Shown here: in pieces, positions 22,342-61,262 of the stretch
Numbering within the stretch: the first letter of the stretch is position 1
Layout: every line of letters begins with the position of its first letter
Assembly: GCA_023374045.1 (NCBI GenBank)
Contig: CM041776.1
Location: forward strand, 39,190,171 to 39,254,170
Direction: 5' to 3'
Origin: Limonium bicolor
Lineage: Eukaryota > Streptophyta > Magnoliopsida > Caryophyllales > Plumbaginaceae
DNA: 64,000 nucleotides
The notes under the pieces: generated by a model
What the model saw: the letters and a program-made list of their open reading frames with translations, nothing else
Told to the model about the DNA's origin: nothing
Databases searched by the model: none
Made by a program: the position numbers and the translations under genes

Positions 22342-22345
22342 AAAG

Positions 22346-23258: not shown

Positions 23259-23591
23259 GAGTGTTATGAGGCTGCCTCGAGGACGGAGCTAATGCTCCAG
23301 ACTCGGGAAGAGACTCTTGGGGCAAAGAAGAGAAAGAACCCCGAAGGAGAGTCTGAGGATGGAGGAGCATCTTCAGGCAATAGCCAGAAGAAGGGGAAGT
23401 AAGGACTTATCCCATTCTAAATTGTTTACCATATTAAATACCTTTAGGAATGCTGACCCGAAACCTTTAACAAGAAATTCTTTAAAAGAAAGGGCAGCAG
23501 GGTCACCAGGGAAAGAAAGGGAAAGAGCCCGTCCTTCGGTTGACCGGCCCAACTATAGACGCTAAGCCTTTGAGATCTGCACCTCCTAAGG

Positions 23592-23676
23592 GTGAGAACG
23601 CCTACCTCTTAAAATTCAATTGTGACCTTAACCTTTATATCAACAGATATTCACTTAAACTAAATACCATCATCAG
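23592..23676 (+). other. Gag intron 2, element C (85 bp, phase 1)
   Basis: Begins GTGAGAAC after CCT CCT AAG G and ends CATCATCAG before the exon reading GTGQPQRHFYCKRC. CTTAAACTAAAT near the end is a plausible branch region. Removal restores the zinc-knuckle frame. Same site and phase as in A and E. Confidence 0.75.
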
Positions 23677-23953
23677 GCACCGGACAGCCCCAACGCCATT
23701 TTTACTGTAAGCGTTGTGGGAGGGACCATCCTGGGTCGACTGCGAAGGCCGCAAAGTTGTCTATCGGTGCTGCAAGAAAGAGAGCCATAGGGAATTCGAG
23801 TGCTGGATGAACCCTGAGAGCCGTAATTACAGGCCACCAAAGAATACTCAGAAGACCTCAGCTGGAGGATCTGGAGTACCACGAGGCGGTCAGGATGGCC
23901 AGACATCTACTGATGCTGGAGCCCTGAAGGGCAAGGGAGTAGATAGGGCATGA

Positions 23954-26040: not shown

Positions 26041-26267
26041 AATTGAGCCTATGTTCATGGGTCTGCACCTCATACGGAGCGAGTGGGCCCATAAGAATGA
26101 ACTTGGGAGAGAGCACAAATAGAGCAGTGCCTCACCTTTATGTATTAGGGAGCCCTGAAGGGCTAGAGTCATACCCGTCTCTCCGATATGAGGATAATTC
26201 ACGAGTTGGTGAACTCTTTGAGAGCCAAGTATCCAGCGCTCCTTATTGAGCGCTGTTGTATACTTGT
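26041..26267 (+). pseudogene. Integrase C-terminal remnant of element C
   Basis: Nucleotide-level similarity to the end of element E's integrase. TTCATGGGTCTGCACC and ATACGGAGCGAGTGGGCCC align with E's GPYEI/ERVGP-coding stretch near 37738-37776. GAACTTGGGAGAGAGCAC aligns with the ELGKVH part. TTGAGAGCCAAGTATCCA aligns with the last codons (MRAKYPSLF). Stops and frameshifts are frequent. It shows that C descends from a full chromovirus. After D is removed the sequence continues at 45648 into GGGGTACGGGGG, as in E's 3' region. Confidence 0.65.
26263..26267. repeat. TSD of solo LTR D, left (CTTGT)
   Basis: CTTGT lies before TGTAATACCCC. The matching CTTGT is at 45643-45647 after GGGGTATTTCA. 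Confidence 0.88.
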
Positions 26268-27990
26268 TGTAATACCCCAACCCGAAATCCAATAATCTGA
26301 ACGGCGATCACTCCCAAATAAAATACAACTGCAGCGGAAATAAATACAACAACCGGGCGGTATTACAATGCCGTTGGCCACCCTTGTGACCAACAAGGCT
26401 AAGTCCAAATACAATCCTCAATGTCACGGTCTGGAATACAGATACAACCCGAGATACTAGGAATCAAACTCAAAAGTACAATACTGAAATAAAACAATTA
26501 ACTAATAGTAACTCCCAAAGCTTGGTCTACCCCCCACACTCACTCAGTGTGGTGATCTCCTCAACTTCAGGTACCTGAAAAATGGGGTGCCCCCAAAGGG
26601 CTCAGCAAACAATGCTGGTATGGAAAACGTGCAGCCCATCGTCTACCGGCCACACCAACTACTTTGTCGAATACATGCAGTTCATTTTTATAAAGCTGTA
26701 ACAAGCATATCTGATAATAACAGTATCCATACAAGGACAATAATGTCCACATAGACAAGACACAGAAGGTCGAGTTAGCTGAACTGAAATTCCTTACTGA
26801 TAGTCGGTCCACACAATGGGACTGACAGTTATAACTGAATATCTGAAATAGTGGAGGTATAGTGACCTCGTTATAGAGAAAAGGTTGGGTATAAAAACCC
26901 CAGGAGATAACGTAGTTAAACCCTGAACTGAATGGCGTGGGAAATAAGAACCCACTAGAGGAATAAAGTCTTCCTCGAACTGAAGGGCATTTGAATCCCG
27001 GAAGGAATAAAGTCTTCCTCCCAACTGAATGTTCCGTCGCGACGTAGTAGGAGACGACCTGAGACAGGTACAACTCCGTAGCATGCATGGCCAGATCCAA
27101 CTGGGCTCCTCATTCTCGAAGTATATATTTGTTAAGTGTCATATAAGACATTAAAAAAAAAAACACAATGTGTATTGTCAATTATCACGTTTAGGATAAT
27201 GACGTTTGTCATAAAGTGAAGTTAGTGAGAGACTTGAGTACAAGTCCTCGTATACTGAAGCGCAGGTATTTAATCCACTGGTATAGTAGTGTTTGTATGC
27301 GTGGGACATCACGTTGTAGTCAGCAACAATCACGCACATAAAATAACACAATAGTGCACAAGAGTAAAACAACATTTTACATTAATTATCTTGGTCGTTT
27401 TTCAAACAACAGATAGCACACAAGCCAGTGTAATCCGCTAGAAAACAGGTTGCAAGAATCCCATACCGTTCACCGTAGACTGTACTCGTTTAATTCCCGG
27501 TCAACGTCTGGTCAAACAGAGTCCTAGGATTGACTGAGAGGGTTAATTTATGTTACCCTTATATAATAATTCTATTGGATCATTTAACAAATCTCGTATT
27601 TGTTATTCATGTGAGGTTTATTTCTTCTAATTACCTCATGATTTAATGTATAACTTATTTGTTATTCCTTTTGATTTACTTATACATCCTTTAATGCACA
27701 TATATGTGTTCATTGCATTTGTTGTTTATTTTATTTGTCTAGGTGACATAACAACTTATAATTTCTTAACTATATTTATATGTCATACATAGACATAAAA
27801 TTCTTATAGTTTTTATTATCTCCTTTTAACCATAAATAATATTTATTGTTTATCTTTTAATTCCTTATAACCATGTAAGCCATAGTTTTAATTCCATAAT
27901 TCCTTTAATCAAATTCTTTCTTCTAAATCCTCCAAATATCCATATAGGACCTATATTTATTTAAATCTAAATTCTTAAACTTGTATTTCG

Positions 27991-27995
27991 GTTAT
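27991..27995. repeat. TSD of element E, left (GTTAT)
   Basis: GTTAT lies before TGAAATACCCC. The identical GTTAT is at 42525-42529 after TGTTACA. Confidence 0.95.
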
Positions 27996-28261
27996 TGAAA
28001 TACCCCAAACTTAGATATGGTGTTCAAAGGATAAACTAAGATATGAGGAGGCTAAATAATGCCTTAGAAACATTAAGAAACATTTCTAAGCAAAGAAAAT
28101 AAGGAAACACCAAAAAGCAGTTTAAGCAAAACGTGCTCTAAGCTTGGAGAGACATGGGAGAGTACCCAAATATTGTTCTAAGACCTTAGTAATATCCTAA
28201 TGGTCATTTTAAGTCAATTATCAAAGAAAACCAAGCTTGAAAACTAGTTAAAACACAAAAT

Positions 28262-28285
28262 GTGCTTTAAGGAGTCTTAAAGCAC
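28262..28285. repeat. Conserved LTR hairpin GTGCTTTAAG
   Basis: Perfect 10-bp arms GTGCTTTAAG and CTTAAAGCAC around a 4-nt loop, 266 bp into the LTR. It is also at 38648-38671 (3' LTR) and 262-285 (element A, same LTR position). A decayed version is in element C (17196-17219). Confidence 0.8.
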
Positions 28286-28471
28286 GTTTTTGAAAAATTG
28301 TCTTGTAAATGAGTTTTGAATGGCTAAATGTCCATCATTACTCTTTAATTAATATGTGTACTATATAGTATCACATTTGGAGGTCTATATCAATGGGAAA
28401 TCAAAATTTCACAACAATGTGCCTTGTTTTGATGAATAGTGAATTAATTAAGCTAGTTTATAACATAAGTC

Positions 28472-28479
28472 TATATAAG
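28472..28479 (+). promoter_or_regulatory. TATA box of element E LTR
   Basis: TATATAAG about 476 bp into the LTR, in an otherwise plausible U3. It is conserved at 38860-38867. It would start a transcript near 28505. No start-site data can be seen. Confidence 0.5.
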
Positions 28480-30294
28480 TGAGACATTTGGTCACAAAGA
28501 CTAAACTACCCTCATTCACTAAAGGGGGCCGGTTTTTTAAGTGTGACTCACCACACTTATCTAGCTAAGTAAAGAGAAAGCAAAATAAGTAAGTTAAAGC
28601 ATAAAGTACTATTCACCTTTTAAGATAAATATCACATTTGCTTACCTCTCTCCTCACTTCTTCATTCTTCCTTGTCTCACACGATTTCTTGCTCTCTTTC
28701 TCTTCTCCATTAACGTGAAGCTCCTCTCCATGCTAGCTCCACCTTCTCTTGCACATCTGCTCATTTTAGCTCCAAATCCAAAACAAAAAACATATCTTCT
28801 TAGTTAGCTCAAGCTCCTCCTTTCTATCTTTCCAAAACTTCAAGAGCTTCATTTTGGTGCCAAGTCAAACCACCATTAGAGGAGGAAATTCAAGTTTGGA
28901 GACTCCATTGGCATCTCCATTCTCTTAAGGTAAAGAAAGTGTAAGAAAATCTAGGTTTCCACCATTTTCTTCACAAACCGAAAATATATGCTCATGGGAC
29001 TCCATGTTTATGCCTTGTTCTAGCTTGTTTCTACTCTTCAAAGGAGAGAGGAGGCCTTCTTGCTTCACATCCAAGTTGCCTTGAGAACCAAGGTAAAACA
29101 ATCACATTAATACCTTAAAAACATATTTTAAACCTAGGGTTTGTTCCTTAGGGTTAATGTATTATCTAGTACTCATTGGAGTCATTGGATATTGGTTAGA
29201 ACATTGGCAAGGAGAATCACATTGGTGACCGAGATTGAACAAAGAAAACCTAAGGAGAAAAGCTTTAAGCTTGTGAGAAAACAAGGAAATTACTTACCTT
29301 AAGGTGTTTTGTTGTTTAAGGGAATGAGATGTGGGTATATGATGAGTTTAGTGTAGAGTTTATATTGGGAAGGTGCTATAAAAACCTAGGAGAAACAATG
29401 ACTATTCTTGTGAACTTGTGACTAAGGAGCAAATGAGAAAAGAGATAGTTTAAGAATATAAAGGTGAAGCACAAGAAGCATTTTATTTCAATGGGAGCCT
29501 TGTTGAGTGTATTCGCAGGTTGAAGGCATATATATTTGTGGAAATTCAGTGGTTAAGATTATTGTTATTTAAGGGCCTAAGTGCCAAGCATTTTAAGTTT
29601 AAGCATTATATGATGATGTGGTGAAGTTTTGGTGTAATTGGGTGTTAAGCTATTGTGATGAGAATTTGTGTGGTATTGGTTGTTTGATGGAGAAAAACCA
29701 TGTGTTAGGAAGTACTATATACTAGAGAACCCATGGCGAAATTTAAAGGAGAGTTTAAGTGTCTAAGATATCCTAAGGGAATTTAATGAATAAGGAAGTA
29801 CTAGGAATGTTCTATGGGTTGTCTTGATGAAAAAGGGTGAAGTAAGTGTTTAATGACTTATGATGACTTAGGTATCACCATGGAATATTTAGGAATCAAG
29901 AGAATGTATTTGGGTATTTAGGACTTAGGCAAATGTTGGTGCACAACTAGGAAGGAAAATGTGATGATGATGGAAGTTTAAACTTGTTAAGGACTTTAAG
30001 TGAATGCTTAAAAGAGTTTAGATAGTGAAAGATGCTTGGGAGATGATGTTATAGTGGTGAAGAAACATTTGGCATAGTGGTTACATTAGGTGAACCACCA
30101 CCTAGAAACCTAGAGGAAAACATTACAAGTGTTAGCATTAGTACAAGGAAAATGCATAATGACTAAGGTGGATCTTGGTGGAGGATTTAAGGTATTTTAA
30201 GGAGGGCTTAAGGTGTATTTGAGGTGCCCAAATGAGGTTATAACATATTAGGAATATGAGGAGAAGTTTGGAGTTGAAAAAGAATTTAGAACAA

Positions 30295-30560
30295 GTTTTT
30301 AGAGCCGACGGCCTTAGGACCGGACTTGCAAGGTCGGTCGGGCTCTGTTACACTACCGGAAAATGTTTCTGGAATGGACCGGACATGGGACCGGACTTGT
30401 CAAGTCCGGTCGGCATGAATTTTGTACGGATTATAAGTCTCTGGAATCGACCGGACATAGGACCGGACATGTAAGTCCGGTCGGAGTGAATTTTCCAACG
30501 GTAAAAGGGTACTGGAATGGACCGGACTTAGGCAAGTCCGGTCGGTAAGTCCGGTCGAGC
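30295..30560. repeat. GACCGGAC palindromic repeat array, 5' LTR of E
   Basis: Successive units pair GACCGGAC with GTCCGGTC, often around CTTG/CAAG. The best arm pair is GACCGGACTTG/CAAGTCCGGTC with one spacer base at 30389-30411. GGAAT or GGAATGG separates units. The zone is G/C-rich within an A/T-rich LTR. It has one 73-bp unit fewer than the 3' LTR. Confidence 0.88.
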
Positions 30561-32063
30561 CTAAAAATAAAAAAAAAAAGAATTTTAAATTCTAAGAATG
30601 GTAATGGGTAATGAGGTATGCCCTTGGTAGGGTAGTAATGATTGGGACCCTAAGGACTTAAGGAATTAAGTTAAGATTAAGTATAAGTTTTAATGTTTAA
30701 GTTAAGTTGTAAGACTAAGTGATAAAGGCTTGAGAGGTTATTGAGTGGAAGTCCTTAGGGACTAAGTGAGTTAAGTGAGGTGCAAATAACTAATGACCTA
30801 AGAATGAATGAATGTTTTAGGTTTGTGAGTTGGGACCCCAAAGAGATTAGTCCAACGAACGATCGACGGTGAACGGTACAGTCTTTCCTGTGACCTGCTT
30901 GCTAACGAGGTGTCCCTCGGCTTGTGTGCTATCTGTTTATTTGCTATGACTAAGACAAGACAAAGCATGCAACCGGTCAAATTTATTCTCGATGTGAATG
31001 TTTACTCCACACTAACCCACGAGACTTGAGAATGTTGCTAACTAAGTTTGGTACTCACTGAGTTAAGGTTAAGAACTAAATAACGGTGATTGTTGGTTTT
31101 ACCCGTCAAGGTTTAACTAACACTTGGTAATTAAGGCTTTCACTAACCATAACTTGGGGTGGGAGTGAGGAATCCGGAATGGTACCGGCACATGTGTATT
31201 GGGGGGTCGGTATCTGAATCAGATCCGACTTCCAAATAAGACTGGTCATTAGACTCGTCGCCTAGGGTCAAAAATCGACCCGACCACCCGGGCTACTGTT
31301 TGAGGGGAGGCACATTAAGGATGGCGTGGGGGGATCAAGCCTACATCCCAATAAATTAAAAAGGTAGCTTATCGTCGGATAGTGCACTGCTACCGGCTAG
31401 GGTTAACCAAGCCCTACAAAGATAAGCAACCAACTAAGGGCTAACCAATCTAATAGTGGAGCGGTTTGGCAAGTATAAGTTAAGGAAATTGTGGATCTAA
31501 GGGGTTAAGAACTAACTCACTTATTAAGGGAACGCCTGAGTCGTTCGTTTGCTTATGGCTAATTATGTCATTGTGGTTGTTGGTTTGTTGTGCTTCACAT
31601 TAAGCTTATTGCACTATTTATGCTTATCATGTTAATAAAACTCCCATGCTATCGACAATTAGTCGTCGTAGCCCCGTTAGCTTGGGGGCCATGGGAGGGT
31701 CGTACCAGCATTCGTGCTGACCCCCTTTGGGGGCTGTTTTTACACTTTTAGGTAAGCGGCCGATGAAGTCACACCACGAGAGTAGGAGCGGGTAGCCCTA
31801 GGTGGGACTTTATTTTGAGTACGGGTAGCGCCTGTGCGCCCGTCTGTTAGTAGGAATATGAGATTTATTATGTGGTTTGAGAATACTTAAAACTCGGATG
31901 GTGTATGTATTTTGGATGTACGGTTGTAAATATTTAAATTACGGTAATTCTTGTTGGTTAGACCGTAGCTAGGTCCTGGTGTTACTTTATTCCGCTGCGA
32001 CGTTAAGTATAGTTTGTTAAGTTGCGATAACCACGATTGGCTTAGGACGGGGTGTTACAAAAG

Positions 32064-32075
32064 TGGTATCAGAGC
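32064..32075 (+). other. Primer binding site of element E
   Basis: TGGTATCAGAGC, complementary to initiator tRNA-Met, four bases after the 5' LTR. Confidence 0.95.
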
Positions 32076-32291
32076 GTAGTTAGCCCTGATCAAGAATACC
32101 GGACTTGAGTGACCACCGAGTTAGGATATAAGAAAGGAATAGTGATGGGATAAGGGTGTGTGAGAAGTTAGAGTGAGTAGAGTCAGATGACCACTAATAA
32201 GTGTGGATTATCTTTACCGTCCACGGACGTTATAAATTTACTAACCAAAACAATGGTGAGTACGAATCTAATGTAAGTTATGCTTGTTCAT

Positions 32292-33686
32292 ATGGCAGGA
32301 CGCCCTAGAGGAGGCCGAGGTCGCGGCCGGGTGAGGATACTTCAGGGATACCTGGAGGGCAGACGATCGCAGATCGTAGCTGCCGCTTTAGGGCACATGG
32401 CTATCACCTGGTGTGGGTGCACCACCTCCACCGCCACAACCTAGGGAACCAAACTGGGTGAAGAGTCTATCAGATCTTCGACCCGCTCATTTAAGGGGGA
32501 GACCGATCCCGCCAAGCTTGAGGCGTACATCTCCGAGCTGGAGACCGCCTTCGAGACCCTTGATGTCCCTGCTGGGATCAAGGTGCGCTTAGCTGCTTTC
32601 TACCTGAAGGGGGCGGCGGGCGATTGGTGGAAGCTGGTGAGGGCCGAGCATGTGGCCAATCCAGAGTTCGGCTGGGAGCAGTACACCGCCTTGCTACGGG
32701 CAAAGTACTACCCCGCCCATGTCCAGACGAAGAAGCGCTTGCAGTTAGATGCGCTTAAGCAGTCGGACAAGATGACAGTGGACGAGTATTACTCAGAGTT
32801 CACTGCCTTGCTCCGTCTTCTGCCAGGTCTAGGGTATTCTGACCAGATCTTGGTAGACCGCTTCTATGGCGGGCTTAGCCATCGACTCCGCTACGGCATG
32901 GGGCCGACGAGTTACACTACCTTGCAGGTAATAAGAATGATTGAGAATTGAGTAAGTGATGAATAAGATTTAGATTATGAGAATAAGTATGACTAATACC
33001 ATGGAAAAGCAGGAGTGCTATCATGCCGCTGCTAAGGTAGAGATAACCGTCCAGCTGAGGGACGAGGAGAACGCTAAGAGAAAGAGTGCTGGGAAGAGTG
33101 CGGAACACCAAGGGCAAGGAGGGTACAAGAAACAAAAGTACCAGCCTCAAGCCCAGAAAAATCAAAACCCGAAGGGGAAGGAGGGAAAGGAGAAGGCTCC
33201 GGAAGAGCCATTGAAGCTGACGTATGCTTATGCAGCTACACCCCTGCGCTCTAAGGCGCCAAAGGGTAAGGAATTGGTATTAAATAAGTTAAGAAACAAC
33301 TAGTAACCATTTGGGATGTGAATATTGACATTGTGAATGATCAGGATCTGAGACTGAGAAAGGAGCCGGTGGTGGATACCAGCGACGCTTCATCTGTAGG
33401 TGGTGTCACAAGGACCACCCCGGGCTCGACTGTAAAGGGAATAAGGTGGAGTGTAACTTTTGCGGAGTACTTGGACACCAAGCATATGAGTGCTACGGGA
33501 ATCCGGAGAGTAAGAATTACAGACCCAGTTTTAAGGTTAAGGCCAAGGCTGATCAGGGATCTGGATCTGACGGTCAGAGGAGGGGGCAACCAGCTGCAGA
33601 CAAGAACCCGAGGGTGACCCAGAAGTCGGGACCCACTCTACACATGGTGGACCGGGACGATGAGCCTGAGCCCTCATCGAGGCCAG
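32292..33686 (+). CDS. Gag of element E, three exons
   Basis: Structural protein that packages the element's RNA. It starts at ATG 32292 (MAGRPRGGRGRG), the same start context as in elements A and C. The first ~290 bases carry a few indels compared with A's open gag. From 32583 the capsid domain is clear: AAFYLKGAAGDWWKLV, YTALLRAKYYPAHVQTKKR, MTVDEYYSEF and FYGGLSHRLRYGMGPTSY. Exons are 32292-32927, 33013-33265 (basic Lys/Gln-rich linker) and 33345-33686, which holds CRWCHKDHPGLDC and the CCHC knuckle CNFCGVLGHQAYEC. Exon 3 is 342 bp, equal to A's. The last codons read PSSRPG at a GT donor. If unspliced, gag would stop soon after, at the TAG at 33704-33706. Confidence 0.85.
32928..33012 (+). 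other. Gag intron 1, element E (85 bp, phase 0)
   Basis: Runs GTAATAAG to AAAAGCAG between the codons TTLQ and ECYHAAAK. It has an in-frame TGA and a plausible branch site, GACTAATACC, near the end. Removing it gives the uninterrupted gag reading found in related families. Confidence 0.78.
33266..33344 (+). other. Gag intron 2, element E (79 bp, phase 1)
   Basis: Begins GTAAGGAA after AAG G and ends AATGATCAG. It contains an in-frame TAG. Splicing joins RSKAPKG to the zinc-knuckle exon beginning SETEKGAGGGYQRRF in frame. Confidence 0.78.
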
Positions 33687-33818
33687 GTACCACTATAACC
33701 ATTTAGTAATAAAACTACCTGCTTACCGCATTATCATGCATGTTTGGTGAAATAAATGAGTTAAGTAAGAATAAGGTGAGATTAGAACTTAAGTGAGATA
33801 TAACCTACATCACTCTAG
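33687..33818 (+). other. Intron 3 of element E, short form joining gag to AlkB
   Basis: The donor CCAG|GTACC follows gag codons PSSRP (phase 1) and the acceptor CACTCTAG precedes the AlkB exon. It is 132 bp (133 bp in element A). Splicing puts gag in frame with the conserved lead-in FNICYPIPST of the AlkB exon. From the same donor a long form, 33687-34706 (1020 bp), would use the acceptor AATTAG before [11 protein letters not shown] and skip AlkB. Confidence 0.6.
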
Positions 33819-34551
33819 GAAGATTCAACATCTGCTACCCAATACCATCTACACCTAACCGGAGCACACCGACATCAAAACCATGGACTTCCAACCGAAC
33901 AATGTCAGGTTATCCGCCCAGGTATGATTTTATTAAGGGGATACCTGACACCCGACGCAAATAGCCATCATCAGGAGATGCAATCAACTAGGAATGGGAC
34001 CGGGAGGTTTTTACACACCGGAGTACCCAGGGGGAGCAAGGATGAAATTAAAGATGATGAGCTTGGGCAAGGATTGGAATCCGTATGCCAAGAACTACCA
34101 AACCATGAGGGAGCAAGATGGAGTCTCACCACCGGGAATACCCGAAGAGTTCCATCCAGTTATTACACAAGTCGTGGAAATCGCTCAGCAGTTGGAGGCT
34201 GAACCGATTCCAGACATCCAACCAGACATTTGCATTAAACTTCTACGAAAAAGATGGGAAACTGGGACTACACCAGGATAAGGACGAGACAACGGAGTCT
34301 CTCGAAAGAGGGATACCGTAGTGTCTTGGTCCATTGGAGATGATGCGGAGTTTTTATACGGCGAGCAGAAGCGTGCGGACCGTGCAGATAAGATAGTACT
34401 TAAGTCAGGTGATGTATTAATTTTGGGAGGAGAATCAAGGATGTTATACCATGGGATTAAGAGAATCAAGCTGAATACGGCACCGTCAGCAGTAATCAAT
34501 GCGACGCATATGAGACCAGGGAGATTAAACCTAACCTTTAGACAATATTAG
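33819..34551 (+). CDS. AlkB-type Fe(II)/2-oxoglutarate dioxygenase domain, element E
   Basis: A domain of the AlkB family, whose members oxidatively remove alkyl groups from nucleic-acid bases. It resembles plant ALKBH1-type proteins. Landmarks: RPGMILLRGYLTP near 33918, GPGGFY and KLKMMSLGKDWNPYAKNY (33994-34110), IPEEFHPVI, PDICI, the Fe-binding HxD in LHQDKDE (about 34270), SWSIGDDAEFLYGEQ, SGDVLILGGESRMLYHG with the distal Fe-binding His, and RPGRLNLTFR with the 2-oxoglutarate-binding Arg, ending RQY-TAG at 34549-34551. Roughly 240 codons including the lead-in. Four 1-2-base indels (near 33860, 33950, 34240 and 34318) break the frame; I see no nonsense substitution. The same domain is at the same place in element A. 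The substrate is unknown; the element's own RNA or cDNA is my guess. Confidence 0.9.
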
Positions 34552-34706
34552 CCATGTAATGTTAGAATGAGATGAGAAATGAGATGTAAGATTGAGCACA
34601 TGTTGTAAACAGGATGGTCATGAATAAAAATAACAGTGTTGTTCATATAAATTGTTACGACTCTTGTTATACCATCAATACTCATGGAGCTTGTGAACAC
34701 AATTAG
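34552..34706 (+). promoter_or_regulatory. AlkB 3' flank with AATAAA, then alternative acceptor
   Basis: About 155 bases separate the AlkB stop from the protease exon. AATAAA at 34623-34628 lies 72 bases after the stop; element A keeps one 65 bases after its stop (58929-58934). AATTAG at 34701-34706 is the in-phase acceptor for gag-pol splicing. A poly(A) role for AATAAA is speculative. Confidence 0.35.
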
Positions 34707-35091
34707 GTCATGGACTCGGTACGGAAGGTGCACTAAGCATACTACAAGAGGCACGGACGATGTAGCGTATATCTCACGGTACACCTCACCCCTTTCCGAT
34801 CAAGGGATTGAGGCATCAGTTCTCTTCGACTCAGGGGCCTCGCATACCTTTGTCTCGGCATCATTTGCGAGCAGGTTGGGGCTAGACGCTGAGGAGCTAC
34901 CCGACTTCACGGTTACGCTCCCGTCTAAGGAGAAGGTTCGTTGCACTCGTTATTACCGAGGAGCCACCATCAATTAAGGGGGAAGACTTCCCAGTCAGTT
35001 TCATTGAGTTCAGTAAGCTAGGATTTGATGTTATCTTCGGGATGAACTGGTTGGAGCGGCACAAGGGACGTATCTCTGCGCCGAGCATAGA
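34707..35091 (+). CDS. Aspartic protease of element E (frameshifted)
   Basis: Retropepsin-type protease that matures Gag and Pol. The active-site motif is in [17 protein letters not shown] (about 34818-34868), followed by [10 protein letters not shown]. The exon beginning [11 protein letters not shown] at 34707 is in phase with the gag donor, but an indel near 34755 moves the reading to the frame used for the active site. Another 2-base loss near 34970 creates TAA before the [10 protein letters not shown] segment. [10 protein letters not shown] then leads to RT. Element A has the equivalent exon open through the active site. Confidence 0.85.
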
Positions 35092-36800
35092 TTGCTGCTC
35101 AGGAGTCCGTCTGGGGTAACAATATCATACCGCCAGAGGCCCAGAGAGCCTTCGACTAAGATCATCACCGCCATGGCAATGCATAGAGAATTAAGGAGAA
35201 AGGAAGAAGTATACCTCTGCTATGTACAGGACATAGAGAGAGACCCTGAGTTCGACCCCGACTTACCGGTAGTGTCGGAGTTCCCCGACTTATTTCCACG
35301 GGAACTGCCCGGCATGCCACCCACTCGGGAGGTAGAGTTCACCATTGAGCTGCTACCTGGTACCGGACCGATAGCCAAAGCACCATACCGTATGGCTCCG
35401 GCAGAAATGACTGAGTTAAAAGAACAACTGAAAGATTTGTTGGATAAAGGATTCGTTAGACCAAGTGTGTCACCATGGGGAGCGCCAGTCCTCTTCGTGA
35501 AGAAGAAGGATGGTAGTCTCCGCCTCTGCATCGACTACAGAGAGCTGAATGCAGTGACAGTGAAGAATAAGTACCCACTACCCCGCATTGACGATCTGTT
35601 CGATCAGTTGAAGGGAGCATCTGTGTTTTCCAAGATTGATCTCAGATCGGGGTATCATCAGATAGCCATTAAGGAGGGAGACATTGAGAAGACGGCATTC
35701 CGGACACGATACGGCCACTATGAGTTTACAGTGATGCCGTTCGGTTTGTCGAACGCGCCAGCGAAGTTTATGGATCTGATGAACCGCTTGTTCCGGGAGC
35801 AGCTGGACAAGTCGGTTGTGGTTTTTATTGATGATATTCTGATATATTCAAAGTCTAAGGTTGAGCATGAGGAACATTTGAGGAGGGTGTTGGAAATATT
35901 AAGGGAGAACCAGCTATATGCTAAGTTCTCCAAGTGTGAGTTTTGGCTTGACCAGGTCTCTTTCCTAGGTCATGTCATCTCAGATGCTGGGATCGCAGTG
36001 GATCCAGCAAAGATTGATGCCGTACGTACCTGGCCAAGGCCGAAGACTGTTACCGACATCCGGAGCTTTCTCGGTCTGGCAGGTTACTACAGGAGATTTG
36101 TTAGAGATTTCAGCAAGGTCGCGAAGCCGATGACCAGTCTGATGAAGAAAGATGCACCATTTCTGTGGACAGATGACTGTGAGAGATCGTTTCAGCGCTT
36201 AAAGGACTCACTGACCACTGCACCGGTACTGACTATTCCAGACGGTACAGAGGGCTTTGAGGTTTATTGTGATGCATCCGGCAGAGGGCTGGGTTGCGTG
36301 CTCATGCAACATGGCAAGGTGGTGGCATATGCCTCACGCCAGTTGAAGAAACATGAGGAGAACTACCCCACACATGATTTAGAGCTGGGAGCTGTAGTCT
36401 TCGCTTTGAAGATATGGCGCCACTACTTATATGGGGTTAGTGTCACGATCTACACCGATCACAAAAGTTTGAAATACATATTCACTCAGAAGGAGTTAAA
36501 TCTTCGACAGAGGAGATGGTTAGAATTTCTGAAAGACTATGACATTGACCTCCAATACAAAGAAGGGAAGGCCAATGTTGTAGCAGATGCCCTGAGCCGT
36601 CGAGCACACTCACTCCATTCGCTAGTTTCTTTCTCCAGCTTGGTTGATGAGGTGCGAGAGGCTCAGAGGACTGATGAGTATATGAGAGAGGTCAGACAGA
36701 AGCTGACAGATGGTACCTTTGAGAGTCAGAAATACGACTTCAGACTTCATGATGATGATCTGATCAGACTTAAGGGCCGGTTATGCATACCACGAGGTAA
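35092..36800 (+). CDS. Reverse transcriptase-RNase H of element E
   Basis: An open reading of 646 codons (35092-37032) covers the linker, RT, RNase H and the integrase N-terminus. RT motifs in order: [100 protein letters not shown], and FIDD in [11 protein letters not shown] at about 35818-35850, the catalytic Asp pair. RNase H shows [45 protein letters not shown] and VADALSRR. Every core residue I can check is kept, so this part looks functional. It is the best evidence for placing the element among Ty3/Gypsy chromoviruses. Confidence 0.96.
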
Positions 36801-38078
36801 CACGGATCTGAAAGACCGTATACTTAGAGAATCACACTGTTCTTCAGTTTCCATCCATCCGGGAGCCTCTAAAATGTATAAAGACATGAAGAGATACTTC
36901 TGGTGGTCGGGGATGAAGACAGATGTTACCGAGTTCGTCTTGAGGTGTCTCACATGCCAGAAGGTGAAATTCGAGCACGACGACCGGGCGGAATGGTACA
37001 GTCGATGCCAGTTCCGGATGGAAGTTCCATGATATTCCATGGACTTCGTAGTTGGGCTTCCACCTGCTAGGGGAGGTCTCAACATGATATGGGTGGTGGT
37101 GGATCGCCTTACCAAAGTAGCCCGATTCATACCGATGAAGGATACTTGGAAGGTGACCAAATTAGCTGAGTTATTTGAGAAAGAAATCATGAGCACGGCA
37201 TACCAAAGACCATAGTGTCAGATAGAGATACCAGATTCCTTTCGAGGTACTGGAGAGCTACCAGAGAAGCGTTGGGTACAGAACTCAAACTGAGTACCGC
37301 GTTCCATCCTCAGACAGATGGTCAGACTGAGCGTACTATTCAGACACTCGAGGACATGCTGAGAGCATGTGCCTTAGACTTCCAGGGCAGTTGGATTGAC
37401 AGATTGCATCTGATCGAGTTTTCATACAACAACAGCTATCACGCTTCGATCAAGATGGCACCTTTTCAAGCGTTGTACGGTAGACCATGTCGTACACCGC
37501 TCTGCTGGGATGAGTCGAGTGAGACGGTCATTATAGGACCAGAGTACTTAGAACAAGTTAAGGCTGAAGTTCAGCAAATCAGGGAGAACATGAAAGCTGC
37601 TCAAGATAGGCAGAAGTCGTATGCTGATGTTCGACGACGGGACCTGGAGTTCGCAGTGGGCGACCGGGTATTTCTGCGAGTATCACCGATGAAGGGTGTA
37701 TTCAGGTTTGGGCAGAAGGGCAAGTTAAGCCCGAAATTTGTTGGTCCTTATGAGATTACGGAGCGGGTGGGCCCGGTTGCTTACAGGTTGAATTTACCTG
37801 CTGAGCTGGGTAAAGTGCATGATGTTTTTCATGTTTCACAGCTAAAGAAATACATGCACCACCCCTCCCATGTGTTAGAACCTGAGAGGTTGACTTTAGA
37901 ACCAAATATGAGATCCGTGGAGACTCCTCAGAGAATCTTGGACAGAAAGACTAGGGACACTCGCCACAAGTCAGTGCGACTGGTGAAGGTTCTCTGGTCT
38001 AACCAGGATGTCGAAGAGGCCACGTGGGAATTAGAGGATAAGATGAGGGCGAAGTACCCTTCTTTATTTACTGACTAG
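36801..38078 (+). CDS. Integrase of element E (one break)
   Basis: Integrase with the HHCC zinc-binding domain ([17 protein letters not shown]... [13 protein letters not shown], about 36860-36980) and a D,D-E core: MDFVVGLPP near 37040, [13 protein letters not shown] at 37215 and [10 protein letters not shown] near 37320. It continues through [43 protein letters not shown] and [31 protein letters not shown] to the stop at 38076-38078. The tail is the Tekay-type chromodomain-like end. Breaks: a small deletion near 37010-37030 and another near 37195 shift frame. From 37215 on it is open for 287 codons. Confidence 0.94.
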
Positions 38079-38109
38079 ATCGTCTGTATAGGGTACGGGG
38101 CGTACCCCT

Positions 38110-38126
38110 TTTTAAGGGGGGTAGAG
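38110..38126 (+). other. Upstream duplicate polypurine tract, element E
   Basis: TTTTAAGGGGGGTAGAG, differing from the terminal tract only in the last base, 263 bases upstream of it. The same duplication is in element C (45669-45685), and a degenerate one is in element A (about 815-830, minus strand). It may be a second plus-strand primer. Confidence 0.7.
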
Positions 38127-38371
38127 CTTCCTCGCTTTTGAGTTAGGAAACGATCATGTTTGTCGTTTGTTTGGTTGTTTAAGATGTGGATTTGTGTAAG
38201 TTGCTACACTTTGGTGTAAGTTTGAGTTATGTATAATACTTATGTATTGTATTGAGATTGACCTTTGAGTCTTGAGATGTATGAATGTGAATATAAGATG
38301 TGGTATTAAGATTAAGAGAACTGTGTACCGTGAATGGTTAAACACATGTGTGAACTTTGAGGACAAAGTTC
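38127..38371 (+). other. Element E 3' untranslated stretch
   Basis: Between the two polypurine tracts. No open frame and no recognisable structure beyond G/T-rich low complexity. Confidence 0.6.
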
Positions 38372-38388
38372 TTTTAAGGGGGGTAGAT
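38372..38388 (+). other. Polypurine tract of element E
   Basis: TTTTAAGGGGGGTAGAT, directly before the 3' LTR start TGAAATACCCC. Confidence 0.95.
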
Positions 38389-41300
38389 TGAAATACCCCA
38401 AACTTAGATATGGTGTTTAAATGATAAACTAAGATATAGAAGGCTAAATAATGCCTTAGAAACATTTCTAATCAAAGAAAATATAAGGAAACACCAAAAA
38501 GAGCAGTTTAAGCAAAACGTGCTCTAAGCTTGGAGAGACATGGGAGAGTACCCAAATATTGTTCTAAGACCTTAGTAATATCCTAATGGTCATTTTAAGT
38601 CAATTACCAAAGAAAACCAAGCTTGAAAACTAGTTAAAACACAAAATGTGCTTTAAGGAGTCTTAAAGCACGTTTTTGAAAAATTGTCTTGTAAATGAGT
38701 TTTGAATGGCTAAATGTCCATCATTACTCTTTAATTAATATGTGTACTATATAGTATCACATTTGGAGGTCTATATCAATGGGAAATCAAAAATTTCACA
38801 ACAATGTGCCTTGTTTTTGATGAATAGTGAATTAATTAAGCTAGTTTATAACATAAGTCTATATAAGTGAGACATTTGGTCAACAAAGACTAAACTACCC
38901 TCATTCACTAAAGGGGGCCGGTTTTTTAAGTGTGACTCACCACACTTATCTAGCTAAGTAAAGAGAAAGCAAAATAAGTAAGTTATAAAGCATAAAGTAC
39001 TATTCACCTTTTAAGATAAATATCACATTTGCTTACCTCTCTCCTCACTTCTTCATTCTTCCTTGTCTCACACGATTTCTTGCTCTCTTTCTCTTCTCCA
39101 TTAACGTGAAGCTCCTCTCCATGCTAGCTCCACCTTCTCTTGCACACATCTTGCTCATTTTAGCTCCAAATCCAAAACAAAATACATATTCTTCTTAGTT
39201 AGCTCAAGCTCCTCCTTTCTATCTTTTCAAAACTTCAAGAGCTTCATTTTGGTGCCAAGTCAAACCACCATTAGAGGAGGAAATTCAAGTTTGGAGACTC
39301 CATTGGCATCTCCATTCTCTTAAGGTAAAGAAAGTGTAAGAAAATCTAGGTTTCCACCATTTTCTTCACATAACCGAAAATATATACTCATGGGACTCCA
39401 TGTTTATGCCTTGTTCTAGCTTGTTTCTACTCTTCAAAGGAGAGAGGAGGTCCTTCTTGCTTCACATCCAAGTTGTCTTGAGAAACCAAGGTAAAACAAT
39501 CACATTAATACCTTAAAACATATTTTTAAACCTAGGGTTTGTTCCTTAGGGTTAATGTGTTATCTAGTACTCATTGGAGTCATTGGATATTGGTTAGAAC
39601 ATTGGCAAGGAGAATCACATTGGTGACCGAGATTGAACAAAGAAAACCTAAGGAGAAAAGCTTTTAAGCTTGTGAGAAAACAAGGTAAATTACTTACCTT
39701 AAGGTGTTTGTTGTTTAAGGGAATGAGATGTGGGTATATGATGAGTTTAGTGTAGAGTTTATATTGGGAAGGTGCTATAAAACCTAGGAGAAACAATGAC
39801 TATTCTTGTGAACTTGTGACTAAGGAGCAAATGAGAAAAGAGATAGTTTAAGAATATAAAGGTGAAGTACAAGAAGCATTTTATTTCAATGGGAGCCTTG
39901 TTGAGTGTATTCGCAGGTTGAAGGCATATTATGTGGAAATTCAGTGGTTAAGATTATTGTATTTAAGGGCCTAAGTGCCAAGCATTTTAAGTTTAAGCAT
40001 TATATGGATGTGGTGAAGTTTTGGTGTAAATTGGGTGTTAAGTTGTGATGAGAATTTGTGTGGTATTGGTTGTTTGATGGAGAAAAACCATGTGTTAGGA
40101 AGTACTATATACTAGAGAACCCATGGCAAAATTTAAAGGAGAGTTTAAGTGTTTAAGATATCCTAAGGGAATTTAATGACTAAGGAAGTACTAGGAATGT
40201 TCTATGGGTTGTCTTGATGAAAAAGGGTGAAGTTAAGGTGTTTTAATGACTTATGATGACTTAGGTATCACCATGGAAGATTTAGGAATCAAGAGAATGT
40301 ATTTGGTTTAGGACTTAGGCAAATGTTGTGCACAACTAGGAAGGAAATAATGTGATGATGATGGAAGTTTAGACTTGTTAAGGAACTTTAAGTAAATGTT
40401 TAAAAGAGTTTTAGATAGTGAGAGATGCTTGGGAGATGATGTTATAGTGGTGAAGAAAACATTTGGCATAGTGGTTACACTAGGTATGAACCACCACCTA
40501 GAAACCTAGAGGAAAGCATTACAAGTGTTAGCATTATTACAAGGAAAATGCATAATGACTAAGGTGGATCTTGGTGGATGATTTAAGGTATTTTAAGGAG
40601 GGCTTAAGGTGTATTTGAGGTGCCCAAATGAGGTTATAACATATTAGGATATAGAGGAGAAGTTTGGAGTTGAAAGAATTTAGAAACAAGTTTTTAGAGC
40701 CGACCGGACCGGACTTGCAAGGTCGGTCGGGCTCTGTTACACTACCGGAAAATGTTTCTGGAATCGACCGGACTTGGGGGACCGGACTTACAAGTCCGGT
40801 CGGACTTGTGTTTTGTGAGGGAAAATGTTTCTGGAATGGACCGGACATGGGACCGGACTTGTCAAGTCCGGTCGGCATGAATTTTGTACGGTTATAAGTC
40901 TCTGGAATCGACCGGACATAGGACCGGACATGTAAGTCCGGTCGGAGTGAATTTTCCAACGGTAAAAGGGTACTGGAATGGACCGGACTTGGCAAGTCCG
41001 GTCGGTAAGTCCGGTCGAGAAATAAAAAAAAAAAAGAAATTTCAAATTCTAAGAAAGGTAATGGGTAATGAGGTATGCCCTTGGTAGGGTAGTAATGATT
41101 GGGACCCTAAGAACTTAAGGAATTAAGTTAAGATTAAGTATAAGTTTTAATGTTTAAAGTTAAGTTGTAAGACTAAGTGATAAAGGCTTGAGAGGTTATT
41201 GAGTGGAAGTCCTTAGGGACTAAGTGAGTTAAGTGAGGTGCAAATAACTAATGACCTAAGAATGAATGAATGTTTTAGGTTTGTGAGTTGGGACCCCGAA

Positions 41301-42524
41301 GAAGATTAGTCAAACAACGATCGACGGTGAACGGTACAGTCTTTCCTGTGACCTGCTTGCTAACGAGGTGTCCCTCGGCTTGTGTGCTATCTGTTTATTT
41401 GCTATGACTAAGACAAGACAAAGCATGCAACCGGTCAAATTTATTCTCGATGTGAATGTGTTTACTCCACACTAACCCACGAGACTTGAGAATGTTGCTA
41501 ACTAAGTTTGGTACTCACTGAGTTAAGGTTAAGAACTAAGTATCGGTGATTGTTGGTTTTACCCGTCAAGGTTTAACTAACACTTGGTAATTAAGGCTTT
41601 CACTAACCATAACTTGGGGTGGGAGTGAGGAATCCGGAATGGTACCGGCACATGTGTATTGGGGGAGGTCGGTATCTGAATCAGATCCGACTTCCAAATA
41701 AGACTGGTCATTAGACTCGTCGCCTAGGGTCAACAAATCGACCCGACCACCCGGGCTACTGTTTGAGGTGGGAGGCACATTAAGGATGGCGTGGGGGGAT
41801 CAAGCCTACATCCCCAATAAAAAGAAAGGTAGCTTATCGTCGGATAGTGCACTGCTACCGGCTAGGGTTAACCAAGCCCTACAAAGATAAGCAACCAACT
41901 AAGGGCTAACCAATCTAATAGTGGAGCGGTTGGCAAGTATAAGGTTAAGGAGATTGTGGATCTAAGGGGTTAAGGACTAACTCACTTATTAAGGGAACGC
42001 CTGAGTCGTTCGTTTGCTTATGAGCTAATTATGTTCATTGTGGTTGTTGGTTTGTTGTGCTTCATATTAAGCTTATTGCGCTATTTATGCTTATCATGTA
42101 ATCAACTCCCATGCTATCGACAATTAGTCGTCGTAGCCCCGTTAGCTTGGGGGCCATGGGAGGGTCGTACCAGCATTCGTGCTGACCCCCTTTGGGGGCT
42201 GTTTTTACACTTGCAGGTAAGCGGCCGATGAAGTCACACCACGAGAGTAGGAGCGGGTAGCCCTAGGTGGGACTTTATTTTGAGTACGGGTAGCGCCTGT
42301 GCACCCGTCTGTTAGTAGTGGAATATGAGATATATTATGGTTTGAGAATACTTAAAACTCGGATGGTGTATGTATTTTGGATGTACGGTTGTAAATATTT
42401 AAATTACGGTAATTCTTGTTGGTTAGACCGTAGCTAGGTCCTGGTGTTACTTTATTCCGCTGCGACGTTAAGTATAGTTTGTTAAGTTGCGATAACCACG
42501 ATTGGCTTAGGACGGGGTGTTACA
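38389..42524 (+). repeat. Element E 3' LTR (4136 bp)
   Basis: Matches 27996-32059 throughout. Differences are scattered and mostly single-base or short indels, plus one additional 73-bp unit at 40747-40819 bounded by direct copies of GGAAAATGTTTCTGGAAT. It ends GGGGTGTTACA, then GTTAT. Confidence 0.96.
40690..41017. repeat. GACCGGAC palindromic repeat array, 3' LTR of E
   Basis: Five units pairing GACCGGAC with GTCCGGTC. The longest arms, GACCGGACTTG/CAAGTCCGGTC, are at 40851-40873. Flanking GGTCGGC and GGTCGGT contain (on the other strand) the plant DRE/CRT core RCCGAC. Confidence 0.88.
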
Positions 42525-42529
42525 GTTAT
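42525..42529. repeat. TSD of element E, right (GTTAT)
   Basis: Matches 27991-27995. Beyond it solo LTR D resumes. Confidence 0.95.
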
Positions 42530-58716: not shown

Positions 58717-58721
58717 GCGAG
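58717..58721. repeat. TSD of element B, right (GCGAG)
   Basis: Matches 4048-4052. Element A's protease resumes here. Confidence 0.93.
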
Positions 58722-58851: not shown

Positions 58852-59870
58852 CTATGTATTTCACAATTTTTCATGAGTATTGATGGTATAACACGAGTCG
58901 TAGCGATTAAGATGAACAACACTGTTATTTTATTGATAACCATCCTTTTTACATCATGTGCCTTTGTTCCCTTACATCATACTTAAAGTATTACATGTCT
59001 AAGACTGTCTAAAGGTTAAGTTCAGCCGTCCTAGTCTCATGTATGTCGCATTAATTACCGTTGACGGTGTTGTGTTCAGTTTGATCTTCTTAATCCCATG
59101 GTATAACATTCTCGACTCTCCACCCATGATTAGCAAATCTCCGGACTTCAATACCAACTTCTTGGCACGGTCCACACAGTTCTTCTCGCCGTATAGGAAT
59201 TCAGCACCATCTCCAAGGGATCAAGACACTACGGGTACCCCTCTTTTGAGAGACTCCGCTGTCTCGTCCTTATCCTGATGTAATCTGAGTCGCCCATCTT
59301 ACTCGTAGAAGTTAACAATGCACATATTTGCTTGTATGTCTGGGATCGGGTCGGCTTCCAGTTACTGAGCGATCTCCATGGCTTGTGTAACAACTGGATG
59401 GAACTCTTCAGGTATTTCGGGTGGTGAAGCTCCATCTTGTGCCCTCATGTTCTGATAGGTCTTGGCATACGGATTCCAATCCTTGCCTAAGCTCATCATC
59501 CTTAGTTTCATCTTTGCTCATCCAGGGTACTCCAGTGTATAAAACCTCCCGGTCCCACTCCTAACTAGCTGCATCTCCTTATGATGGCTATTTGTGCCTC
59601 GGGTGTCAGGTATCCTCTTAATAAAATCGTACCTGGGCAGATAACCTAACATTTCTCTTGTGTGATCTCTCGAGTTTGGATGTCGGTCTCCTCCGGGTTA
59701 AGCGTTGAAGGTATGGGATATCAAATGTTGAAATTTCCTAAGGTGGTAATAGGTTATATCTTACTTAAGTTCTAGTCATATACTAAGTCTTATCTAACTC
59801 AGTCATTCATCCAAGCATGCATGAATGCGGTAAGCAGGCAATTTTCACTACTTAATGGTTACAGCGGTAC
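58852..59870 (-). other. Long intron 3 of element A (skips AlkB, joins gag to pol)
   Basis: From the donor CCAG|GTACC (59870) to the acceptor ACATAG (58852), 1019 bp against 1020 bp for the equivalent in element E. Both ends are phase 1, so splicing gives a continuous Gag-Pol reading. The short alternative, 59870-59738 (133 bp, acceptor CCACCTTAG), instead joins gag to AlkB. Confidence 0.55.
58999..59737 (-). pseudogene. AlkB-type dioxygenase domain of element A (decayed)
   Basis: Minus-strand relative of element E's AlkB domain, in the same place. Recognisable parts: the lead-in NFNI.YPIPSTLNP, PGTILLRGYLTPEAQIAIIRRC (read across the exon start), GPGGF, MKLRMMSLGKDWNPYAK, ASPPEIPEEFHPVV, CIVNFYE, HQDKDETAESLKRG with the HxD pair, GDGAEFLYGEKN, KSGDLLIMGGESRMLYHG and RLNLTFRQS before TAG at 58999-59001. 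About seven in-frame stops, several explainable as C-to-T or G-to-A changes such as CAG to TAG and TGG to TGA, and one frameshift near 59545 mark it as a pseudogene. All ligand positions (His, Asp, His, Arg) remain visible. Confidence 0.9.
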
Positions 59871-61262
59871 CTGGTCTCGATGAGGGTTCAGCCTCATCAT
59901 CCCGATCCACCATGTGGAGAGTAGGTCCCGACTTTTGGACTACCCGGGGTCCTTTGTTGGCTGCAGGATGTGTCGCTTTCTGACCGTCGGATCCAGTGTT
60001 CTGACCGGTCTTGCCCTTGCCCTTCCACTCGGGCCTGAAGGCTCGGCTCTCCGGGTTTCGGAAGCACTCATAGGCTCGGTGTCCGAGTACTCCACAAAAG
60101 TTGCACTCCACCTTGTTGCCCTTGCAGTCAAGTCCGGTGTGGTCCTTGTGGCACCAAGAGCAGATATAGCGACGTTGGTATCCACCACCGGCTCCCGTCC
60201 CAGACTCAGACCCTGATTGTTCACATTATTAGTGATTGTATCTCAATGGTTGCTAATATATTGTTAACTCACATTAAGGTGTATTTTCTTACCCTTTGGC
60301 GCTTTCGAGCGCAGGGGCTTAGTAGTTATTGCGTAAGTGAGCTTAAGTGGCTCCTCAGCAGCCTTCTCACTCTCCCCCTTTTCCTTCAGGCCCTTTTGGG
60401 TCTGAGGCTGGTACTTTGCTTTCTTGTACCCACCTTGCCCTTGGTTGTCGGACCCCTTCCCAGCAGCCTTCCTCTTGGAGGCATTGTCCTCGTCCCTCGG
60501 CTGGACGCTCATCTCCACCTTAGTAGCGGCATAATAGCACTCCTGCTTTCAAGGTGTTAGTTTCTCTCATTCTCATAGTATAAAATCTTAATCGCTTATA
60601 AGTATCTCAACCTTTCTCATTACCTGCAAGGTAGTATAGCTCGTCGAGCCCATGCCATAGCGGAGTCGATGGCTCAGCCCGCCATAAAAGTGGTCCACGA
60701 GGATCTGGTCCGAGTACCCCAGTCCCGGTAGAAGACGTGGCAAGGCGATGAACTCAGAGTAGTACTCGTCCACTGACATCTTGTCCGTTTGCTTCAGCGC
60801 ATCCAACTGTAAGTGATTCTTCGTCTGGACAAGGGCGGGGTAGTATTTGGCTCGTAGTAGAGCCGTGTACTGATCCCAACCGAATTCTGGGTTGGCCACA
60901 TGCTCGGCCTTTACCAGTTTCCACCAATCACCCGCCACTCCCTTTCGATAAAACGCTGCAAGTCGAACCTTGACTCCAGCAGGTACGTCAAGGGTCTCGA
61001 ATGCATTCTCCATCTCGGAGATGTATGCTTCGAGCTTGGCGGGATCCATCTCCCCTTTGAACGGTGGGGGTCGAAGGTCAACAAGACACTTCACCCAGTT
61101 AGGTTCCCGGGGCTGTGGTGGTGGTGGTGGTGGCGGTGCACCAGGATGATAGCCCATATGCCCTAAAGCGGCAGCCACGACCTCAGTGATCGTCTGCCCT
61201 CCCGATATCTCAGTTGCCTGATCACCTCGGCCACGGCCTACGCCTCCTCTCCTTCCTGACAT
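59871..61262 (-). CDS. Gag of element A, three exons, open when spliced
   Basis: Minus-strand gag that is uninterrupted if the two introns are removed: exons 61262-60624, 60542-60293 and 60212-59871, about 410 codons to the donor. The chosen start, ATG at 61262 (MSGRRGGVG), matches C's start; an in-frame ATG upstream (61283) is less likely. Domains: Gly/Arg-rich N-terminus, a run of eight Pro, REPNWVKCLVDLRPPPFKG, capsid core (GVAGDWWKLVKAEH, YTALLRAKYYPA, MSVDEYYSEF), basic linker, then CSWCHKDHTGLDC and CNFCGVLGHRAYEC knuckles. An open gag beside a ruined AlkB and pol is notable. Unspliced, it would end at a TAG just past the 59871 donor. Confidence 0.9.
60213..60292 (-). other. Gag intron 2, element A (80 bp, phase 1)
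   Basis: Minus strand GTAAGAAA...CAATCAG, with an in-frame TAA inside. It joins SKAPKG to the exon GSESGTGAGGGYQRRY. Confidence 0.78.
60543..60623 (-). other. Gag intron 1, element A (81 bp, phase 0)
   Basis: Minus strand GTAATGAG...GAAAGCAG, between TTLQ and ECYYAATK. It has a TAA inside and AACTAACACC as a plausible branch site near the 3' end. Confidence 0.78.

Follow-up and report, generated by a model that had tools for sequence, protein, structure and literature searches.

Why a plant retrotransposon should carry a nucleic acid dioxygenase between gag and protease, and how it could express such an enzyme, is the question raised by a 64,000-nucleotide stretch of the Limonium bicolor genome (GenBank assembly GCA_023374045.1, contig CM041776.1, positions 39,190,171 to 39,254,170 of the forward strand; hereafter the window, whose numbering is used for coordinates). 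The window is a nest of long terminal repeat (LTR) elements, the innermost of which, element E (27996-42524), has the Pfam coding order gag capsid, CCHC zinc knuckle, AlkB, aspartic protease, reverse transcriptase (RT), RNase H, integrase and a chromodomain-like end. An earlier note on this DNA had singled out the AlkB block, and the boundaries it gave, 33819-34551, are exactly those of an exon that runs from a 3' splice site at 33818/33819 (a slash marks a splice site throughout) to a stop codon ending at 34551. We find that this block is an AlkB-family dioxygenase, of the plant ALKBH1 class, that it bears the mark of frame-specific constraint in coding-sequence comparisons, and that integrated copies across the genome carry two different junctions from the end of gag, one joining it in frame to AlkB and the other skipping AlkB to reach the protease.

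In the window copy of E, PF13532 (2OG-FeII_Oxy_2), the profile against which the earlier note had proposed checking the block, matches two of three pieces: that at 34282-34548 passes the curated cut-off with an expectation value (E value) of 1.1e-23, that at 33994-34278 scores 19.4 bits (E 1.3e-3) and stays under the cut-off, and the third, 28 residues holding HxD, has no PF13532 match by itself. The AlkB landmarks that the note listed, HQDKDE, YHG and RLNLTFR, are present in E but lie in different reading frames, so that E as assembled encodes no whole AlkB protein. The second block it reported, in element A on the minus strand, does occupy the same place between gag zinc knuckle and protease, and is broken too: its N-terminal part uses one frame, and the remainder, interrupted by several in-frame stops, uses a second. 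A genomic copy with an open block in that position, L012, covers the PF13532 profile from 1 to 194 of 194 (E 9.4e-46; 156.9 bits against a cut-off of 31.2), which excludes a chance motif as the explanation. The residues tested were the HxD...H iron ligands and the RxxxxxR and NxY 2-oxoglutarate residues, with roles as given in PMC9289625. All of them (H159, D161, H219, R243, R249, N148 and Y150) are kept in L012, in the copy L028 and in three unnamed proteins, P0001-P0003; a fourth, P0004, is cut short and ends before the arginines, and L052, a broken A-type copy, has Gln in place of the distal His. Full profile, ligand residues and the fold modelled for the relative P0001 all place the block in the AlkB/2OG-FeII_Oxy_2 family.

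The closest solved structure by sequence is rice OsALKBH1 (PDB 5xeg and 5xoi; E 3.5e-75). A fold model, made for P0001 (74% identical) and not for the window family's own protein, has a predicted local distance difference test score (pLDDT) of 93 and a template modelling (TM) score of 0.92 to rice ALKBH1 (5xeg), compared with 0.81-0.83 to E. coli AlkB, 0.56-0.64 to mammalian ALKBH1 and 0.56-0.59 to ALKBH5. Because mammalian ALKBH1 reaches only 0.56-0.64, the likeness is to the plant form of ALKBH1; ALKBH5 membership is ruled out by the gap between 0.56-0.59 and 0.92. Those hits that carry a class in their names are called ALKBH1, abh1, AlkB or N6-methyladenine (6mA) demethylase, many others being unnamed or hypothetical (best 120 of 477), and on the modelled fold the domain belongs to the plant ALKBH1 class.

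In a tree of AlkB proteins, the element sequences and P0001-P0004 form a clade of their own (support 100/100) that excludes all 30 of the sampled angiosperm proteins; the root of this tree is unset and it has no ALKBH5, ALKBH9 or ALKBH10 rows, which bears on any nesting within ALKBH1 subfamily A, B, C or D. P0002 is sister to element copy L066 (99/95) and therefore probably comes from such an element. In the protein search, the score drops after P0001-P0004, the next protein, P0121, clusters with host proteins in the tree, and the best 120 of 1870 matches hold no further member of the element clade. Set against OsALKBH1, the element proteins have a shorter loop and mostly read GDDAEF for GDSAEF, L066 and L067 excepted. 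No AlkB relative was confirmed in viral contigs among 244 pattern matches, and no fused Gag-AlkB protein was found elsewhere with a naturally occurring Gag-AlkB frame as query: 17 hits of 213 candidates reached at most 59% query coverage, much longer proteins lying outside the length limits.

The domain is far from confined to two elements. Scoring covered the 40 best matches to each DNA query. First-look candidates need not all be true copies, and the counts for E and A may overlap; on that footing all 40 scored matches to E (best 40 of 5222 candidates, window copy included) are 97-100% identical and all 40 to A (best 40 of 7156) are 86-100% identical. AlkB is open from the first residues of the block to NLTFR in 14 of the 40 scored close copies, a set that includes the window copy. 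Two much diverged lineages keep the order gag knuckle, AlkB, protease: L066 (C3, match at 403746961), with protein identities of 57% for AlkB and 63-66% for protease-RT, and L067 (C6, match at 159687715), with 70% and 78-83%. AlkB and pol diverging in step is as expected of one old capture inherited with the element. Four diverged element lineages of one genome hold the block in the same place, and this, with the separate clade, argues that the capture is old; we consider that an ALKBH1-class dioxygenase was probably captured long ago, and once. The earlier note had suggested capture from a host ALKBH1-like gene; that this host's own gene was the source is no more than a possibility, since a genome pattern aimed at that gene did not find it and returned two more element lineages.

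Comparisons of coding sequence demonstrate frame-specific constraint on AlkB. The ratio of nonsynonymous to synonymous divergence (dN/dS) of L012 against 39 rows (38 loci and the window's A) is 0.11-0.41 in every case. Subfamily comparisons with four E-side copies and the window's A give 0.17-0.26 in frame and 0.64-1.91 in wrong frames, and those with four further A-type copies 0.14-0.17 and 0.80-1.64; over all nine, the true frame yields 0.14-0.26 and the two wrong frames 0.64-1.91. For L067 and L066, uncorrected pN/pS is 0.24 and 0.29, with 1.03-1.57 in wrong frames, and pol of E against A has a dN/dS of 0.12. Neither the confinement to two elements nor the neutral dN/dS that the earlier note had named as fatal to its proposal was found, and its ALKBH1-like domain, lodged between gag and protease of a chromovirus-type element, is borne out in many copies.

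How the domain could be expressed is suggested by copies that have lost introns. In full copies gag is interrupted, and gag and AlkB stand in separate reading frames. We predicted, before searching, a donor CCAG/GTACC at 33686/33687 and acceptors TAG/GAAGATTC at 33818/33819 and at 34706/34707; both joins, gag to AlkB and gag to protease, restore the frame in the same phase. A whole-genome search for the gag/AlkB junction (up to two mismatches) found nine places and its reversed-pattern control none; all nine copies lack the 132-nt intron i3 (a single gap in six, split by the aligner in three) and join in frame as SSRPG/RFNICYP or close variants. The gag/protease junction (up to three mismatches) occurs at 14 places, eight of them without mismatch, against none for the control; each of the ten copies examined lacks exactly 1027 nt of L012 and joins in frame, several being broken further on. 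Two more introns, g1 and g2, lie within gag. Among copies selected by AlkB, g1 is missing in 3 of 39 scorable ones: L009 and L010 show an exact gap of 86 nt, and in L046 a gap of 85 nt is broken up. In the same set g2 is missing in 2 of 40 (L002 and L019, one 81-nt gap each) and i3 in none of 40; g2 is also missing in L034 and L037 (81 and 82 nt). Among the ten AlkB-skipped copies, g1 is gone from six (86-nt gap) and g2 from seven (79-81 nt), and six have lost all three introns (g1, g2 and the long one), as a Gag-Pol mRNA would after complete splicing; in L059 g2 and the long intron are gone, and in L058, L063 and L065 the long intron only.

Use of both acceptors is well supported by these integrated copies, from which, and not from RNA, the splicing is read. 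Introns in gag and the alternative joining or skipping of AlkB go beyond anything the earlier note had foreseen. L066 has a donor and an acceptor of the same phase, and L067 has the acceptor, with no CAG/GT-like donor in the stretch searched. An AATAAA lies 59-74 bases past the AlkB stop in all 47 copies with a locatable stop, A included (3 of 50 were not locatable), and is present in L067 and absent from L066; it could end a short Gag-AlkB mRNA by early polyadenylation. Two pairs of spliced copies are near-identical and close together, L060 and L061 (C7, 199518912 and 199528118; 9 kb apart) and L032 and L033 (C1, 27775510 and 27830638; 55 kb apart), and each pair is perhaps a local duplication of one event.

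The reading that we favor, and hold to be somewhat better than an even bet, is that two-acceptor splicing yields Gag-AlkB on the one hand and Gag-Pol on the other, and that the Gag-tethered dioxygenase enters particles and demethylates or repairs the RNA or cDNA of the element. The primary transcript would offer one donor at the end of gag to two competing acceptors. Use of the near acceptor, removing 132 nt, would give an mRNA for the in-frame Gag-AlkB fusion, terminated by the AlkB stop and perhaps by the AATAAA close behind it, and use of the far one (about 1.0 kb) would remove AlkB and allow Gag-Protease-Pol to be made; removal of g1 and g2 would also be required to make Gag. Unspliced RNA would serve as the main genome, with spliced RNA reverse-transcribed occasionally to leave fossil junctions. 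Once translated, an active Gag-AlkB would enter particles through its Gag part and could clear the packaged RNA, or cDNA while single-stranded, of methyl or alkyl marks, so that translation, packaging and reverse transcription would not be halted by damage or by host marking. DNA 6mA, preferentially single-stranded or unpaired, is the reported target of rice ALKBH1 (PMC10469495), and N6-methyladenosine (m6A) on plant retrotransposon RNA is reported to keep that RNA in stress granules until ALKBH9B removes the mark (PMC12786077); these reports make single-stranded cDNA and packaged RNA the foremost candidate substrates. A wider claim, that a packaged Gag-demethylase fusion controlled by a ratio-setting splice switch was captured separately from that of orchids, and hence that erasure or repair of marks has been selected at least twice, seems to us evenly poised. 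The genome itself records the splice products of the element, which makes the effect of methylation or alkylation on retrotransposon RNA or cDNA directly testable; if it exists, a dioxygenase tethered to Gag would be a sign that the element is affected by marks on its packaged nucleic acid as well as by those on translated mRNA.

Several observations weigh against this proposal. RNA as the substrate is an assumption, rice ALKBH1 being reported on DNA 6mA (PMC10469495). Between L012 and A, intron i3 (L012 1369-1500 against window 59738-59870) has diverged by 0.175 and the 3' spacer by 0.208, compared with 0.67 at synonymous sites; because these non-coding parts diverge less, the dS of AlkB may be inflated, and with the intron as neutral yardstick AlkB would seem less constrained, its dN of 0.113 amounting to some 0.65 of the local rate. 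Our guess at the cause of the high synonymous divergence is that G+C-rich exons lose methylated C. Of the 40 close copies scored, 26 have no open AlkB, and in some of them assembly error may be to blame. These broken copies, with both window copies among the broken and a dN only moderately low beside the intron, are what one would expect if AlkB were a functionless passenger, captured once and amplified with the element, and yet we regard that as quite improbable given the frame-specific constraint in nine comparisons, the catalytic residues kept in L012, L028 and P0001-P0003 and the retention of the block at one place in four diverged lineages. The remaining points touch the splicing. In a tree of the shared exons (60 rows, the unspliced sample being picked for likeness to E), 15 of the 19 spliced copies branch between the unspliced group and A, AlkB-skipped and AlkB-bearing ones alternating, and because no unspliced copy was sampled in that interval some spliced losses may be shared. 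This branching, together with a review that calls plant LTR elements generally intronless apart from Ogre and EVADE (PMC12786077), could be taken to mean that intronless, AlkB-less copies are ancestral and that introns and AlkB were inserted later at exact points, with no splicing at all. Outgroup element A has g1, g2, i3 and AlkB at positions matching E, and on that ground we read their absences as losses through spliced RNA. The same tree requires at least eight changes for the AlkB-skipped state and at least five for loss of any kind, and L031, L034, L057 and L058 nest within the unspliced E-like group. The AlkB-exon tree requires at least four changes for the i3-lost copies and clusters L031 with the intron-bearing L014 and L017. 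Different copies lack different subsets of introns, and every intron of L012 starts with GT and ends with AG. The layout of A and the changes in the shared-exon tree lead us to reject insertion, to which we leave only the slimmest chance.

Two further alternatives accept a working enzyme and place it elsewhere, and both strike us as unlikely, to a similar degree. AlkB might be a free protein, translated from an RNA of its own at an internal start (the Met of RPGMILL, for instance) and acting in the cytoplasm on element or host RNA. P0001 and P0004 as called do start at that Met, which is weak evidence because gene callers tend to cut at ATG, and the ORF2 of an orchid element is separate and active alone (PMC9289625). 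Such a start is hard to square with the in-frame gag/AlkB join in all nine junction copies and with an acceptor placed just before FNICYP, whose host counterpart, FDIC, lies upstream of the RPGMILL Met. Alternatively, AlkB might have host chromatin as its target and erase 6mA from DNA or interfere with silencing at element loci. In favor of this, rice ALKBH1, its nearest solved structure, is described as an enzyme that takes 6mA off DNA and opposes Polycomb repressive complex 2 (PRC2) (PMC10469495); fusion to Gag would instead put the element's AlkB in cytoplasmic particles.

The features of both elements are collected in the table.

Coordinates of features of elements E and A in the window (E, expectation value in the last column)
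Feature	Position	Strand	Basis or remark
5' LTR, element E, TG...CA	27996..32059	+	LTR pair; target-site duplication GTTAT
Primer-binding-site-like TGGTATCAGAGC	32064..32075	+	Position read from sequence
Open reading frame with gag capsid piece; final codons enter intron g1	32583..32948	+	PF03732 Retrotrans_gag, E 1.8e-18
gag intron g1, CAG/GTAATA...AAGCAG/GA	32928..33012	+	Absent in some copies
gag intron g2, AAGG/GTAAGG...ATCAG/GATCTG	33266..33344	+	Absent in some copies
Last gag exon part, CCHC zinc knuckle, to shared donor CCAG/GTACC	33446..33686	+	zf-CCHC, E 0.0056, below curated cut-off
Intron i3, gag to AlkB, 132 nt	33687..33818	+	Absent in 9 of 9 junction copies
Alternative long intron, AlkB-skipping, same donor to protease acceptor	33687..34706	+	14 junction copies
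AlkB exon (2OG-Fe(II) dioxygenase, plant ALKBH1 class by modelled fold), element E, frameshifted, ends RLNLTFRQY-stop	33819..34551	+	Pfam; open copies
AATAAA after AlkB stop, element E	34623..34628	+	Sequence match
Aspartic protease, start of protease-pol exon	34707..34974	+	PF08284 RVP_2, E 5.1e-9
Reverse transcriptase, RNase H, integrase zinc-binding domain	35092..37029	+	PF00078, PF17917, PF17921
Integrase C-terminal part, chromodomain-like end	37215..38075	+	PF24626, E 2.7e-27; PF00385 Chromo, E 3.8e-5
3' LTR, element E	38389..42524	+	LTR pair
AATAAA after AlkB stop, element A	58922..58934	-	Sequence match
AlkB exon, element A, one frame change and several in-frame stops	58999..59737	-	Frames; dN/dS 0.17 against L012
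Intron i3, element A, donor and acceptor positions as in E	59738..59870	-	Sequence comparison
gag intron g2, element A	60213..60292	-	Sequence comparison
gag intron g1, element A	60543..60623	-	Splice-site letters only

By its protease-RT-RNase H-integrase order and terminal chromodomain, element E counts as a chromovirus (Ty3/Gypsy), with a PF00385 Chromo match of 23.9 bits that falls just under the curated 25.1. Its LTRs of 4.1 kb would fit the Tekay/Del clade of chromoviruses, its primer-binding site, TGGTATCAGAGC, is one that we take to be of the initiator-Met tRNA type, and a 5-bp target-site duplication, GTTAT, lies outside both ends. The element is young, since its LTRs differ by a Kimura two-parameter (K2P) distance of only 0.0108, with 43 substitutions and 62 gaps over 4009 aligned bases. 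The gaps are an excess of indels, perhaps caused by assembly errors, and single-base deletions occur in many copies of the family; together these mean that some frameshifts may be assembly errors. Around E, an LTR-like pair at 4053-10199 and 52154-58717 (98% alike) surrounds another at 16777-22347 and 46334-51938 (96%); E sits within both (4053-58717), and the whole nest lies within element A. No open reading frame of at least 180 amino acids is present in window 10200-28000 or 42500-58700, so both large nested elements look non-autonomous or decayed. A direct-repeat array with a unit of about 175 nt occupies 10213-11304, just inside the outer large repeat pair.

Among known systems, the nearest is Gypsy_Pa_2799 of the orchid Phalaenopsis, a plant Ty3/Gypsy LTR element that also has many copies and an AlkB-family domain of its own (PMC9289625). 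That element is of the Tat/Ogre lineage and has a single gag-pol reading frame plus a separate 565-residue ORF2, an ALKBH5-class protein (paALKBH5-like) that demethylates m6A in vitro and is proposed to act in the cytoplasm (PMC9289625). Here, in an element with a chromodomain-type end, the domain is of the ALKBH1 class, lies between gag and protease and would be spliced to Gag. Judged by that end, the AlkB class and the AlkB position, the Limonium family does not belong with the orchid Ogre-AlkB elements. The earlier note knew of no Tekay-type element with its own AlkB; this much holds, as no Tekay or chromovirus element with an AlkB or 2-oxoglutarate dioxygenase domain appears in the open-licence literature (most subscription papers and all preprints lie outside it), although the orchid case means that AlkB in an LTR retrotransposon is not itself new. 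The accessible part of a December 2025 review names only that case (PMC12786077), open-licence works citing the orchid paper, as far as their accessible text goes, describe no further AlkB-bearing LTR retrotransposon, and a sunflower survey found alternative splicing of expressed retrotransposons with, in the text available, no Tekay among the expressed set (PMC7730604).

The family also qualifies as an intron-bearing LTR retrotransposon, on integrated spliced copies rather than RNA. Ogre elements of pea and Medicago similarly have a coding-region intron that is spliced from part of the transcripts to restore the polyprotein, but theirs is a single intron between the gag-protease and RT reading frames with, in the accessible accounts, no extra enzyme described (PMC6317226, PMC12786077), unlike the gag-protease intron with two alternative acceptors and the two introns inside gag found here. 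In EVADE and BARE1, which make short Gag isoforms, alternative splicing likewise controls how much Gag-type product is made relative to Gag-Pol-type product, but those isoforms encode Gag alone (PMC12786077, PMC3735527); the alternative isoform here would add an enzyme domain to Gag. Rice OsALKBH1 is a host gene, in contrast to the separate clade of the element proteins. Plant RNA viruses offer another RNA-based mobile element with an AlkB-fold domain (PMC9289625); theirs lies within replicase polyproteins and has a weaker fold likeness (TM about 0.44-0.53 among the matches listed). What sets the Limonium family apart from the orchid case is its lineage, the class and position of its AlkB domain and the way in which this would be expressed. 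The family suggests that orchids are no isolated instance of plant retrotransposons taking up AlkB: a different Ty3/Gypsy lineage acquired, in a separate event, a domain of a different AlkB class and kept it through long divergence.
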